DNA from: SAR202 cluster bacterium
GTDB lineage: Bacteria; Chloroflexota; Dehalococcoidia; Lucifugimonadales; UBA3495
Assembly: GCA_013204585.1 (NCBI GenBank)
Contig: JABMNL010000039.1
Coordinates: 1 to 56,279, forward strand
Length of the DNA: 56,279 nucleotides
Reading direction: 5' to 3'
Notes under the pieces: generated by a model
What the model was told of the DNA's origin: nothing
The model's database searches: none
Seen by the model: only the letters and a program-made list of their open reading frames with translations
Program-made: the position numbers and the translations under genes
Shown here: positions 31,606 through 39,968 of the stretch, in pieces
Layout: each line of letters starts with the position of its first letter
How positions within the stretch are numbered: position 1 is the stretch's first letter

Positions 31606-32048
31606 GGAGGGGTGCTGCAGACCTGTAAGCCGGGTTTTGTATCCTTCCGGTTAAGGAAGGACGGTGACCATCTATCTAGCCCTTCCGACGGCGGTGAAGC
31701 CAGCAGAAGTCCGCTTTTGGCGGAGCGGCGTTGCCGCCGCAGTCAAGCAGCCAACCCGGGGACGGGCCAGGCGCCTATGTCCCCCTATTTGGCCTTGCTC
31801 CAGGTGGGGTTTAGCCGCCGCTGCGTCACCGCAGACGGCCGGACGCTCTTACCGTCCGATTTCACCCTGGCCTCGACGAGTCGAGGTGGTATGTTTCTGT
31901 GCCACTTTCCGTCCCCCAACGGGACCCCGATGGAATCGGGGCCGTCGCCAGAGGCCTGGGAGTTACCCAGCACCATGCCTAGAGGAGCCCGGACTTTCCT
32001 CCCCCACGACGAATCGAGGCGGCGGTCACCCAGTCTGCATTACCCTCC
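31606..32048 (-). ncRNA. rnpB: RNase P RNA, class A
   Basis: The catalytic RNA that trims tRNA 5' ends. On the minus strand, GAGGAAAGTCCGGGCTCC (P4 and conserved region I) is near the 5' end, followed by CAGAAACATACC, CCAGGGTGAAATCGGACGG and, close to the 3' end, ACAAAACCCGGCTTACAGG. P1 forms between GGAGGG...TGCAGAC at the 5' end and GTCTGCA...CCCTCC at the 3' end, which sets both ends. About 443 nucleotides. Open reading frames crossing it are not real genes. Confidence 0.93.
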
Positions 32049-34445: not shown

Positions 34446-35408
34446 TTAGACTAGTTTGCGGGCCAGCGACAGTCTGCCGTCAATCAGTTCTTTAAATACT
34501 TCGGGCACTGTGAGAATCTCGGAGATTAGTCCAGCACCCGCGCCCATGTAGGCCACGCCAGCATCAAAGTCGCCATCTAAAAATGCCGCTCTCGTCCGGT
34601 CAATACCTAGCTGTTGGTCCCAAGCGGTCATGTCGTCTTCAGGCGCGCCCATGCTGGACTCCCGCATCTGTAACGCTGTGCCCTGTTTTAGTACTCTGGT
34701 TGGCCATTTGTCGCCGCCAACCACTACAGTTCCGCTGTCGATTGAGGCCACCATTGCTGCCTTGTAGTTCTGGTGGGAGATACATTCTTTGGTGGCAGCG
34801 AAACGGGAGCCCATCTGCACGCCCATCGCACCCAAAGCCATCGCGGCCAGGTAGCCACGAGAGTCAACGATGCCGCCGGACGCTATGACCGGTATGGCGA
34901 CGGAACTCACAACTTGGGGCACCAGCACCATGGTGGAAACCTTATCGACGCCGCGTAAGCCACCGCCTTCAAATCCTTCGGCGATGACCATGTCGACACC
35001 CTGGGCTTCGGCACCTCGGGCATGGCGGACGGTCGAAACTTGATGAATGACCGTCATGCCATGTTCTTTCAGAGAACCGGTATACAGCGCGGGACTGCCG
35101 CCGTAAGTGATGGCGATGTTGACGCCCTCTTGGGCCGCGGCCTCAATCAATTGTTCTATCTGGGGATGAGGTAGGTAGAAGGCGACGCCAAAGGGTTTTT
35201 GAGTCAACCGCTGTACCTTGCGAATCACGGCATGGAGGTTGGCCACGGGGTCGGCGCCAGGCTCGATTCCAGACGTATGGTGTAAAATCCCCAACCCGCC
35301 GGCGGTCGACACAGCTGCGACTAACTCTGGGTTTGAGACCCAGGGTAGTCCGGCCTGTAGGATTGGATATGAGATTCCAAGTGCTGTGCTAACCGGGGTG
35401 CGTTTCAT
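34446..35408 (-). CDS. nitronate monooxygenase / FabK-like flavin enzyme
   Basis: A 320-residue FMN-dependent TIM-barrel protein of the 2-nitropropane dioxygenase group. Seen: YPILQAGLPWVSNPELVAAVSTAGGLG at the start, VIAEGFEGGGLRG (phosphate-binding Gly-rich turn), and PVIASGGIVDSRGYLAAMALGAMGVQMGSRF, the standard FMN site. These enzymes oxidise nitronates or reduce enoyl-ACP (FabK); the present one is nearer to nitronate monooxygenase in length. Single gene. Confidence 0.85.
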   Translation of the reverse strand: MKRTPVSTALGISYPILQAGLPWVSNPELVAAVSTAGGLGILHHTSGIEPGADPVANLHAVIRKVQRLTQKPFGVAFYLPHPQIEQLIEAAAQEGVNIAITYGGSPALYTGSLKEHGMTVIHQVSTVRHARGAEAQGVDMVIAEGFEGGGLRGVDKVSTMVLVPQVVSSVAIPVIASGGIVDSRGYLAAMALGAMGVQMGSRFAATKECISHQNYKAAMVASIDSGTVVVGGDKWPTRVLKQGTALQMRESSMGAPEDDMTAWDQQLGIDRTRAAFLDGDFDAGVAYMGAGAGLISEILTVPEVFKELIDGRLSLARKLV

Positions 35409-35752: not shown

Positions 35753-36646
35753 ATGAAAATGTTATTCGTTACTTTGATTGCTGGCTTATCCGTCTTAGCC
35801 TTCGCAGCTTGTGGTGGTTCCTCTGAACCGGAACCGGAACCGACCGCTACACTTGTGCCAACGCCAAGTGTTGCGGTTTCTCTGGGTGATGAAGTTGCTA
35901 CCTGTCTGGATGCGCGGATCGGAAAAGACGGAGCGGAAGCCGCTTTGTCCAATTTGATAACCAACACAGCCGAGCAGGAAGCGGCCCTTCAGGAATGTCT
36001 GCTGGCTGCTTCGTTGGCGGGTGGTCAAACTTCTGAAGCTCGCGCACTGGCCTGTCTAACTGAGAAGTTGGGCGCAGAAGTGGCCAAGGTTGTTGCTTCG
36101 GGGCTTCTTCCCCTCAGTGACGAAGAGTCGGCCATATTAGGAGAGTGTGTACTCTCTGCAATAACTTCTTCCGCATCTTCCATCGTGAAGAGTGACCCGA
36201 TTGTTACCTGTCTGGAAAAAACTTTGGACTCCAATCTGGCTAAGGCTGTTGCTTCAAAGGCAATTCCTTTGACCGCTGAACAAGAATCCCTATTGGCAGG
36301 CTGCGAGTTTTCCACCAGCCTTGGTGGTGGCAACAGCTCGACTCTATCGGACAGCGTAATTACCTGTCTCGAAAACTCTCTGGGGGCTGAATCGGCACAG
36401 GCGGTGGCGTCGGGGGCCACCAACTTAACCGACAAACAGCAGGCTGCTTTAGGCGGCTGTAAGCTTGGCTCGGCATTGGGTACGAGCAGTAGTACGGTAT
36501 CGACCGGTATTATGGACTGCCTGACAAAGGAGTTAGGCGCTGACGTGGCCCAGGTGGTGGCTTCTGCCGTGCTACCGCTGAGTGCAGCCGAAGAACAGGT
36601 CATGGGCAACTGTGTCCTACTGGACGCATTGGGGATTGCACCCTAG
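35753..36646 (+). CDS. lipoprotein with five cysteine-pair repeats
   Basis: A 297-residue exported protein of unknown function. The signal peptide ends VLAFAAC (lipidated Cys 20), followed by a Pro/Glu linker (SSEPEPEPTATLVPTPS). Then come five repeats of about 51 residues, each with a Cys pair in the form C-x30-C (51/82, 101/132, 153/184, 205/236, 256/287). The consensus is CLxxxLGAxxAxxVASGxxPLTxxE..LxxC: two short helices joined by a loop, pinned by a likely disulfide. I do not recognise the family. A gene of similar design lies tail-to-tail with it at 36745. Confidence 0.75.
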   Translation: MKMLFVTLIAGLSVLAFAACGGSSEPEPEPTATLVPTPSVAVSLGDEVATCLDARIGKDGAEAALSNLITNTAEQEAALQECLLAASLAGGQTSEARALACLTEKLGAEVAKVVASGLLPLSDEESAILGECVLSAITSSASSIVKSDPIVTCLEKTLDSNLAKAVASKAIPLTAEQESLLAGCEFSTSLGGGNSSTLSDSVITCLENSLGAESAQAVASGATNLTDKQQAALGGCKLGSALGTSSSTVSTGIMDCLTKELGADVAQVVASAVLPLSAAEEQVMGNCVLLDALGIAP

Positions 36647-36669
36647 CCCGAAGTTGAATTAGTTGACCT

Positions 36670-36709
36670 AATAAAAATGGCGCTCCAATTTGGGAGCGCC
36701 ATTTTTATT
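36670..36709. terminator. bidirectional terminator between the two repeat-protein genes
   Basis: A perfect 17-base-pair hairpin (36670-36686 with 36693-36709), GC-rich at the top and A/T-rich at the base, with T-tracts in both directions. It serves both convergent genes. Confidence 0.9.
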
Positions 36710-36744
36710 TGTTGTACGTTCAGTCCCCTCCTGGGATTGGTTAG

Positions 36745-38622
36745 TTACTTGGTTGGAACCGGTGTTAAATTCGGGTCGGTGGGGATCTCGTCTAGTAAGT
36801 CACCGGGGATCTCATCGGGAAACTCTCCAGGGAAGTCGCCGGGAAGCTCACCGGGGAATGCACCAGGGAACTCGCTAGGGAACTCACCAGGGAATGCACC
36901 AGGGAAGTCGCTGGGAAGCTCACCGGGGAATGCACCAGGGAAGTCACTAGGGAACTCACCGGGGAATGAGCCGGGTATCTCAAGTCCTTCCAGGCAGTTC
37001 TGCGTGATCTTCGCCATTTCCTCGGGACTTAAAGCGCCCGCATCGGTGGGTGTGTAACCCAGCGTTTTGGCGGCGCACTCGGCCAGTTCGGGTATCCCTC
37101 CGGGCATGATAGCGGAGAAATCACCGGAGAAAGGGCCGAGGAAAAACTCGGGGTTTTCGTCCGGTTTTTCACCGAAGTTACCATTAGGATTACCGCCGGG
37201 AACACTGTCGGGGCCATCGTAAGGGATTCCGTATTCTTGGTTAAAGCACTCTTTTCCAATCAATATTTGCTGCTGATTGCTTAGGTCATTCGGCCCGGTG
37301 GGCAGGAAGCCAAGTACATCCATGATGCACTGGTCTATTTCACCAACCATGCCGGAGTCATCTCCGACGTTTCCAACGAACTCCTCGCCGAAACATTCCT
37401 GGTTAACCTTGTCTTTTTGGTCTGGGGTCATGTCATCGGGGCTGGCAGGTAGGTAGCCGAGCAAATTAGTAATGCAGGCTACGGCTCCGCCGCCCAAATC
37501 GTCAGCGTTACTCAGGTCTAGTCCGAAGCACTCTGCTCCAACTCTGGTCTTGTCGTCGTAAGACAGGTCCTCGGGGTTAGTGGGCAGGTGTCCCAGAATG
37601 CCGATGATGCATTGATTGATTTCTTCGTCCTCGGCGTTACGAATTTCATTCCCGTTTCCGAAGCAGGCCCGTCCAATCTCGATTTGCTGTTCTTGAGAAA
37701 GGTCCTGAGGCCCTTTGGGCATGTAGCCGATGGTGTCGATGATGCACTGAGCTTGCTCGTCGTCCGGTGCGTTTTCATCTGGGAAGCAAGTCCGGCCAAC
37801 CTCAATCCGTTGCTCGTCGGTGAGATCATCTGGGTTGCTTGGCAGGGACCCGAGAACGCCAATGATGCACTGGGTGACCGGGTCGTCCAAATCAGCTTGT
37901 ATCTGTTGTCCTCCGAAGCATTCGCGCCCGACCAGTTCCTGTTTTTCTACGCTTATCTCTTCCGGGCCGTTGGGCAGGTATCCCAGAATCCCGACGATGC
38001 AGTCGATTGTTACTTGGTCCAGGTCATTGGCGCTGCCTCGTTCATCGGCGAAACACGCCTGTCCAAGCTCAATTTGCTGAGTTTCGGACAGGTCTTCCGG
38101 GCCGTTGGGCATGTAGCCGAGGGTGTCGATGATGCACTGGCGGGTAGCATCGTCCAGCCCGTCGCCTTGGGGTTCTTGGCCGTCCGGGCCGCGCTGGTCG
38201 GCGAAGCACGCTTGGCCCAGGGAGATTTTTTGGTTTTCGGTCATGTCCTCGGGGCCCTCGGGCATATAGCCGATGGTGTCGATGATGCATTGGCGAGTCA
38301 CATCGTCAATTTCGGGTCCTTGTTGGCCCTGGTTTTGGCTGCTATTTCCGGGTCGACCGCAGTTCTGGCCGATTGATTGAATCTGTTCGGGAGAAAGCTC
38401 AGATAATGAGCTAGGCATAAATCCAACAATGTCAATTACGCATTGTTTGAGTTCGTCATTACCAAATCCGCTCTGTCCGTCAGCATGTTGGTCAGCGGAA
38501 GCAGTCGAAATCGAAGCCGCCCAAATTAGCGGCAATGCGATTCCGAACGCCAATATTAAGAAGATTGGGCTCCCAGCCAGGGACATAATCGCCGATGTTG
38601 TAGAAGTACGTGCCTGTGCCAT
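36745..38622 (-). CDS. secreted protein with ten cysteine-pair repeats and a Pro-Gly-Phe tail
   Basis: A 625-residue exported protein of unknown function. The start is ATG 38622, six bases after AGGAG. A signal peptide (hydrophobic ~18-38) probably cleaves after ASTASA/DQ. Ten repeats follow, each with Cys in the exact spacing C-x26-C (pairs at 61/88, 112/139, 163/190, 208/235, 252/279, 293/320, 338/365, 383/410, 432/459, 516/543). Consensus: QCIIDxLGYLPxGPEDLSxxQxxxxGxxCF. Linkers are acidic and rich in Gly, Asn, Asp. Residues ~550-610 are a low-complexity FPGEFPSDFPGAFPGE-type tail. Likely a disulfide-stabilised surface or cell-wall protein, by inference. Confidence 0.75.
   Translation of the reverse strand: MAQARTSTTSAIMSLAGSPIFLILAFGIALPLIWAASISTASADQHADGQSGFGNDELKQCVIDIVGFMPSSLSELSPEQIQSIGQNCGRPGNSSQNQGQQGPEIDDVTRQCIIDTIGYMPEGPEDMTENQKISLGQACFADQRGPDGQEPQGDGLDDATRQCIIDTLGYMPNGPEDLSETQQIELGQACFADERGSANDLDQVTIDCIVGILGYLPNGPEEISVEKQELVGRECFGGQQIQADLDDPVTQCIIGVLGSLPSNPDDLTDEQRIEVGRTCFPDENAPDDEQAQCIIDTIGYMPKGPQDLSQEQQIEIGRACFGNGNEIRNAEDEEINQCIIGILGHLPTNPEDLSYDDKTRVGAECFGLDLSNADDLGGGAVACITNLLGYLPASPDDMTPDQKDKVNQECFGEEFVGNVGDDSGMVGEIDQCIMDVLGFLPTGPNDLSNQQQILIGKECFNQEYGIPYDGPDSVPGGNPNGNFGEKPDENPEFFLGPFSGDFSAIMPGGIPELAECAAKTLGYTPTDAGALSPEEMAKITQNCLEGLEIPGSFPGEFPSDFPGAFPGELPSDFPGAFPGEFPSEFPGAFPGELPGDFPGEFPDEIPGDLLDEIPTDPNLTPVPTK
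36793..36972. repeat. degenerate DNA tandem repeat coding the Pro-Gly-Phe tail
   Basis: Roughly 12- and 36-base units coding FPGEFPS/FPGAFPGE patterns in the 3' part of the ten-repeat protein gene, with closely alike copies of GGGAA(T/C)GCACCAGGGAA and GGGAAGCTCACCGGGGAA. Confidence 0.7.
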
Positions 38623-38879: not shown

Positions 38880-39968
38880 ATGAAGGCAGCAGTACTGTAC
38901 GAAGCGTTTAAACCGTTGGTGGTGGAAGACCTGGAACTCGAACGCCCCAAGGAACACGAGGTCTTGGTTAAGCTGACCGCCAGTGGCGTGTGCCATAGTG
39001 ATTTGCACTACATGAAGGGCGACCGCGAACACCCAATGCCGGTGGTGCTGGGCCATGAAGGGGCAGGCATTGTGGAAGAAATTGGCCCCGGCGTGACCTA
39101 CGCCCAGCCTGGCGACCACGTGGTGTTGTCATTTGTGCCCACTTGCGGTAAATGCTCCTACTGCGTCAAAGGACGGCAGAACCTGTGTGAAGCTCGGTAC
39201 GGGCTACGCGGGAACATGCAGGACGGCACAACTAGACTCCGCAAAGGCTCCCAAGAGATTCACCACTTCAACGGCCTGTCCACCTTTGGCGAGTACGCCG
39301 TGGTGCCCGAGGACAGCCTGGTGAAAATTAGAGAGGATGCTCCGTTGGACCGGGTGGCCCTAATTGGCTGTGGCGTGCCCACCGGCGTTGGCGCAGTAAT
39401 CAACACCGCCAAGGTTAGGCCGGGCAGCAGCGTCGTTGTGATTGGCACCGGCGGCGTGGGTCTAAACGTCGTTCAGGGTGCCGTGTTGGCCGGGGCGGAG
39501 GCGATTATTGGTGTGGACATTCACGGCGGCAAACTAGAGCATGCCCTACAGTTTGGCGCCACCCATCTGATTAACGCCGCCACCGAAGACGTAATGGAAA
39601 AAGTTCGGGATATCACCCGAGGCGAGATGGCTGACTACGCATTTGAGGTCATCGGCTCCACAGAGGCCATTAAGCAGGCCATGATGACCACCAAGCGTGG
39701 CGGAACCACCGTTGTGGTGGGCGTTACCCCGGCGGGCGCGGAACTGACCATCGACCCCGACTTCTTGCACCTGGACCGGGTGCTGATGGGCTGCACTTAC
39801 GGCTCTTGCTACCCACGCGCCGATATGCCCATGCTAATCGACCTCTACATGGCCCGACGCCTAAAGCTGGACGAGCTAATCAGCGCAACTTTCAAGATTG
39901 ACGATATCAATACCGCCTTCGAGGCATTGGACCAAGGGGAAGTGGCGCGGAGCATTATTCGTTACTGA
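38880..39968 (+). CDS. zinc-dependent alcohol dehydrogenase (MDR family)
   Basis: A 362-residue medium-chain dehydrogenase. Catalytic zinc ligands Cys in GVCHSDLHY, GHEGAGIVEEIG, and Cys in IGCGVPTG; structural zinc Cys cluster CGKCSYCVKGRQNLC; nucleotide site VVIGTGGVGLNVVQGAVLAG. This is the class III/NDMA-type group, acting on alcohols or S-hydroxymethyl adducts; substrate unknown. AGGTAACGAAAGG precedes the ATG. Single gene. Confidence 0.9.
   Translation: MKAAVLYEAFKPLVVEDLELERPKEHEVLVKLTASGVCHSDLHYMKGDREHPMPVVLGHEGAGIVEEIGPGVTYAQPGDHVVLSFVPTCGKCSYCVKGRQNLCEARYGLRGNMQDGTTRLRKGSQEIHHFNGLSTFGEYAVVPEDSLVKIREDAPLDRVALIGCGVPTGVGAVINTAKVRPGSSVVVIGTGGVGLNVVQGAVLAGAEAIIGVDIHGGKLEHALQFGATHLINAATEDVMEKVRDITRGEMADYAFEVIGSTEAIKQAMMTTKRGGTTVVVGVTPAGAELTIDPDFLHLDRVLMGCTYGSCYPRADMPMLIDLYMARRLKLDELISATFKIDDINTAFEALDQGEVARSIIRY

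Follow-up and report, generated by a model that had tools for sequence, protein, structure and literature searches.

The window, a stretch of 56,279 nucleotides from a SAR202 cluster bacterium, carries two convergent genes, A and B, encoding proteins that are built from cysteine-paired repeats (Table 1). A tail-to-tail pair with five C-x30-C and ten C-x26-C repeats around one shared terminator had been proposed from the sequence. The genes and their repeats were confirmed, with none of 5000 shuffles matching the cysteine spacing, and a terminator-like palindromic hairpin with A/T flanks, which folds on both strands, lies between the two stops. The 71-base segment around it has folding energies of −31 kcal/mol on one strand and −27 kcal/mol on the other; a simple terminator scan did not list the 36670-36709 hairpin. 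Hairpins of differing sequence were seen by eye in the A–B gap of the three other genomes that carry the pair (G488, G492 and G479, see below).

Table 1. Coordinates of the features at the gene-pair locus, as positions in the window.
Feature	Position	Strand	Description or basis
Nitronate monooxygenase (PF03060), conserved A-side neighbour	34446..35408	-	Pfam and locus comparison
Gene A	35753..36646	+	297 aa; lipoprotein-type N-terminus (Cys20), Pro/Thr/Glu stem, five C-x30-C helical repeats
A repeat 1, Cys51-Cys82	35903..35998	+	Cys-spacing list
A repeat 2, Cys101-Cys132	36053..36148	+	Cys-spacing list
A repeat 3, Cys153-Cys184	36209..36304	+	Cys-spacing list
A repeat 4, Cys205-Cys236	36365..36460	+	Cys-spacing list
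A repeat 5, Cys256-Cys287	36518..36613	+	Cys-spacing list
Shared two-way terminator-like hairpin between convergent stops	36670..36709	.	Read, then folded
Gene B	36745..38622	-	Signal-type N-terminus, ten C-x26-C helix-turn-helix beads, Pro/Gly/Glu-rich tail
B tail, FPGEFPSDFPGAFPGE-type repeats	36748..36993	-	Sequence inspection
B repeat array, Cys75 to Cys557 (639-aa ORF numbering)	36994..38442	-	Cys-spacing list
Zinc alcohol dehydrogenase (PF08240/PF00107), B-side neighbour	38880..39968	+	Pfam and locus comparison

Elsewhere in the window, a full-length RNase P RNA of bacterial class A is found at 31610-32041 on the minus strand (RF00010, 223.7 bits).

Both proteins are predicted to be exported, based on signal sequences read by eye, and each gene is present as a single copy in its own genome. 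The hydrophobic N-terminus of A is followed by LAFAAC-GG (read by eye) and this lipobox Cys after a hydrophobic signal predicts a bacterial lipoprotein; position −3 is occupied by F in the window protein, and the 10 A homologs having that part read AAC, VAC or MGC, followed by GG (by eye). The spacing from Cys20 to Cys51 is also x30, which we regard as a coincidence since in the 10 homologs with a lipobox Cys the next Cys follows at a spacing of 40-50. There are six equal Cys spacings in A, or five without this coincidence, and the best of 5000 residue shuffles reached four. In B, all 20 cysteines fall into pairs with x26 spacing (10/10), separated by linkers of 13-56 residues, and the 10 equal spacings compare with a best of 6 among 5000 residue shuffles. 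We define the bead family by a signal-type N-terminus followed by C-x5-G-x20-C helix-turn-helix repeats in tandem, and B has both. Its start is given as 38664 in the list of open reading frames and as 38622 by the end of the original prediction; we prefer 38622 because an ATG is found there with AGGAGA about six bases upstream, and this start gives a length of about 625 aa.

A protein search returned 20 B homologs with 6-11 x26 pairs each, a count that includes fragments and leaves out linkers that are 26 long by chance, and an alignment-based search (E ≤ 0.001) gave 24 B proteins, namely 19 of the first 20 and five new ones (P0034, whose start is cut, and four of 268-316 aa). The A search gave 13 rows including the protein of the window itself; these have 3-5 x30 pairs if a further x30 spacing, which precedes the lipobox in P0031, is left out. 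The bead profile matched 214 times in B and its 20 close homologs, and both Cys residues are present in 202 of these matches; the other 12 are four alignment scraps, seven matches cut by the protein end and one lost Cys (P0008). The 202 B repeats share, in addition to both Cys, Gly at +6 (nearly all), Pro at +9 (96%), an L-T/S-x-E/D-E/Q motif and Phe after the closing Cys (90%). In 60 A repeats we find Cys-Leu (95%), L-G, Ala at +10 (97%), Ser at +15 (92%), L-T-x-E-Q/E and Leu-Gly-x ahead of the closing Cys; this set includes the mis-registered Cys20-Cys51 stretch, whose removal left 59 repeats for the profile comparison. The FPGEFPSDFPGAFPGE-type repeats in the tail of B were not seen in the other homolog tails, which were inspected by eye: 15 B homologs have in common a terminal domain of about 75 residues that B of the window lacks, P0001 and P0004 stop after the last bead without this domain, and the remaining tails belong to fragments.

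The structure prediction suggested for one repeat was carried out with AlphaFold2, and each B repeat was confidently modelled as a helix-turn-helix (H1, short turn, H2) with a block-mean pLDDT of about 79-91. The linkers are acidic and mostly disordered in the model; most of them have a pLDDT below 50, and the pTM is 0.26. The rigid beaded rod that had been envisaged is therefore not supported, and the model predicts a flexible string of small, probably disulfide-pinned beads. The number of beads varies from 2 to 11 among family members with two Cys per bead, and this, together with the conserved Cys pairs, argues for pairing within the bead; we infer one disulfide per bead. It speaks against enzyme-made disulfides that VKOR and DsbB were not found in the window's genome, which is 92% complete; three DsbA-type (Thioredoxin_4) matches were found there, two of them over the cut-off, and each lies in a frame that is opened by an in-frame TGA where the first active-site Cys would be. 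The disulfides of A and B could possibly form by spontaneous oxidation outside the cell.

A shared repeat design, diverged in spacing by four residues, had also been put forward for the two proteins, and profile comparison aligned the repeats in register, with modest significance. Alignment by hhalign of 195 B versus 59 A unique repeats gave a P-value of 0.0009 and a probability of 22%, and 24 B versus 22 A repeats gave 0.0004 and 35%. In the alignment, which spans 32 columns, the Cys, LG and T-x-E positions of the two repeats coincide. The difference between x26 and x30 is indeed a net four, made up of five extra residues in the first loop of A and one fewer before the closing Cys. The score of 17.3 compares with a mean of 7.8 in column permutations with the Cys columns fixed, none of which (0/300) was as high; it was reached by 0/300 full column permutations, 0/47 reversed rotations and 1/200 block shuffles with each of the 4-column and 7-column blocks. 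HMMER cross-searches between A and B were weak, with best E-values of 0.0015 (13 sequences) and 0.012 (21 sequences). A common origin of the A and B repeats is thus likely but not shown. It is a doubtful but serious alternative that A and B are independent exported tandem Cys-hairpin scaffolds, brought together by linkage only and alike in their repeats by convergence; the hhalign probabilities, the HMMER searches and the block shuffles are in its favour, whereas the agreement in the Cys, LG and T-x-E register and the failure of every Cys-fixed permutation to reach the score speak against it.

In the order, the B profile matches 15 of 247 genomes at 1e-6, of which the four strongest have E-values of 1e-79 or better and the next has 6e-36. 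The A repeat profile matches 4/247 genomes, exactly the four with strong B matches: the window's genome (G000), G488 (taken as Chloroflexi bacterium isolate SP22), G492 (taken as Dehalococcoidia bacterium isolate UWMA-0337) and G479 (taken as Dehalococcoidia bacterium UBA1141). Co-occurrence, which had been named as a check, was therefore found, and A and B are adjacent and convergent in 4/4 of these genomes, with order and orientation kept between two genera; the copies in G488 and G492 sit at contig ends, and A of G492 begins on a second contig. The A side holds a nitronate monooxygenase gene and then an SbcD-like phosphoesterase gene in all four (SbcD is our label; the Pfam name is Metallophos). 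Within the genus, own genome included, the pair is present in 3/12 genomes and neither gene is found in 9/12. The monooxygenase gene is detected at 1e-100 in 8/12, three with the pair and five without, and in four pair-less genomes (G489, G493, G494 and G495) it adjoins a Rieske oxygenase gene, as labelled by Pfam on the G493 copy and by the likeness of their start in the other three; the junction of the fifth, G486, lies outside these cases. Joint presence and absence and the fixed convergent adjacency at one site mark the pair as one unit. The same pattern could result from linkage and common descent alone and is hence no independent proof of joint function, and if A and B were independent, their joint absence could be a single deletion at the monooxygenase/Rieske junction; conservation of order and orientation across two genera argues against independence.

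Compared with G488, A has a pN/pS of 0.31 over 257 codons, B one of 0.36 over 217 codons of the N-terminal side, and the neighbour enzyme one of 0.077; the respective omega values of 0.08, 0.16 and 0.03 are rough, since synonymous change is near saturation. A and B are constrained, yet evolve faster than the neighbour enzyme. In G492, the B frame has in-frame stops (L006 10010-11710) and one A repeat lacks its first Cys; in G479, a frame change and a stop interrupt the B frame (L008 9953-12393), and A has a stop near the first repeats. The sequence flanking both B interruptions is still repeat-like. With the B frame interrupted in 2/4 pair genomes, these two either can do without the pair or have faulty assemblies, and the interruptions may reflect either decay or assembly error; related proteins with unbroken frames exist.

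Weaker B-type matches, with E-values from 6e-36 to 9e-9, occur in 11 further genomes of the 247 and are without A, a distribution that would fit independent scaffolds. No A partner was found by the A-profile search for the bead proteins L044-L054, L058 and L059, and A repeats were seen only beside B in the order-wide searches. These proteins resemble B in having the C-x5-G ... L-T-x-E ... C bead, in 2-4 copies, but differ in that it is set in lipoprotein-type, hydrophobic-segment or large proteins. L048-L050, L053 and L054 are small lipoprotein-type proteins with 3-4 beads, L046, L047 and L058 have a C-terminal hydrophobic segment, and L044, L051, L052 and L059 are large frames, whose non-bead parts are Ig/PKD-like by eye; L045 adjoins another long frame. 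A match to eCIS_core (PF13699) above the cut-off lies ahead of the beads in L052 (422-2680, minus strand) and L059 (1006-3240, minus strand). Given its occurrence in several protein types of the order, the bead is a reusable module. L045 (985-2628, minus strand), L051, L052 and L059 also have, near the C-terminus, another Cys-pair repeat, F/L/Y-C-x-x-N-P-x-D-x-x-C, in about 2-5 copies per protein by eye. G488 additionally encodes a B-type protein of three beads that stands alone and has a signal-type start (L009 10004-10639), and no A gene was seen within the surrounding 20.6 kb.

In light of these data, we tentatively favour the reading that A and B act as one envelope unit, in which A would be anchored in the membrane by its predicted lipid and B, outside the cell, would be held at the surface by A. 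The net charge is −37 to −121 in the 20 B homologs, some of which are fragments, and −13 to −31 in the 13 A rows, which include A of the window; since both are acidic, simple charge attraction cannot join them, and contact may instead be made through the related beads. The acidic linkers would keep the string extended, possibly bridged by cations, and the role could be structural, cation-binding or adhesive in a monoderm envelope. PMC10284905 and PMC12488501 contain passages in which Chloroflexota are described as monoderm, with S-layers in some, and in which peptidoglycan-containing envelopes are given as ancestral within Dehalococcoidia and lost before a marine radiation. Against the one-unit reading stand the B-type beads without A in 11 genomes, the solo protein of G488, the failure to find VKOR or DsbB, the interrupted B frames and the possibility that joint presence comes from linkage and descent alone, as well as the modest hhalign probabilities and the block shuffles that reached the score.

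The statement that A and B lie outside known families held up, as both proteins of the window stay below the cut-off of every Pfam and NCBIfam model, no solved structure matches them in sequence comparison with the PDB and neither the repeat family nor the gene pair was seen among the papers that a literature search listed. A and B do not qualify as SLH-anchored S-layer proteins, since Pfam gave no SLH match for the window proteins or the B family members. Alpha-hairpinins and CHCH/twin CX9C proteins are likewise helical hairpins pinned by cysteines, but each of their hairpins has two disulfides, and its pairs are C-x3-C or C-x9-C, whereas the repeats of A and B have one Cys pair of x26 or x30, with no C-x3-C or C-x9-C in the spacing list and no sequence match in Pfam or the PDB. 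The surface proteins with thrombospondin type 3 repeats (PF02412) resemble the beads in being acidic and Cys-paired. The bead differs in its predicted helical fold, and A and B of the window have no PF02412 match and so do not belong to this class.

It seems unlikely that the beads or linkers serve to bind a ligand, with DD/EE-rich loops that would chelate calcium or other cations and form a surface store or a calcium-gelled coat rather than a tether. The strongly negative charge of the B homologs would suit such a role, and thrombospondin type 3 repeats are found in 2 of 20 B family members, with weak EF-hand matches in the same set (EF-hand_7 in three, best 0.052; EF-hand_8 in two, best 0.00015), which may come from the same region as the thrombospondin type 3 matches; the NCBIfam MtsC and Omp28_seleno models match 2 of 20 members, probably through this repeat. 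However, no metal-site model matches the window proteins up to an E-value of 1, and Cys pairs need no metal.

A more specific version of the one-unit reading, which we regard as a long shot, is that A and B form a dedicated membrane-to-coat tether of monoderm Chloroflexota built on one new disulfide-pinned helical module: the lipoprotein and the ten-bead polyanionic string would click together bead to bead and keep a surface layer in place where the peptidoglycan is thin or has been lost, and the module would be reused in secreted proteins of the order. If true, this would provide a molecular handle on outer-coat organisation in monoderm cells. It is very improbable that the Cys pairs stay reduced or bind haem or metal in electron-transfer or redox proteins. 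In favour of this are the failure to find VKOR and DsbB and a weak match of the SorU c-type cytochrome profile (NF052248) in 5/20 B members (best 3.2e-05), a local likeness to the C-terminal part of small c-type cytochromes. Against it, neither A nor B has a CXXCH haem site and so neither is such a cytochrome, the match in window B scores 18.9 bits against a cut-off of 100 over 30 residues of one bead in a unit that is repeated ten times, and we know of no haem or Fe-S site with single Cys pairs 26-30 residues apart. The novelty is modest, a new repeat family of a known general kind and a new gene pair. The work defines an undescribed module of about 30 residues with one Cys pair, predicted to be secreted and reused in different proteins by several families within one order of Chloroflexota. 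It also defines a conserved unit of two short genes that is testable in vitro.

The window's genome also has three DsbA/FrnE-like genes (FrnE is our label): L097 (G000:C27:31979), L098 (G000:C29:51333) and L099 (G000:C30:148010). In each, an in-frame TGA replaces the first active-site Cys, in the context Y-T/V-[TGA]-P followed by H-S, Y-C or W-C. This position of the TGA suggests selenocysteine, and a short hairpin can form downstream of each TGA.
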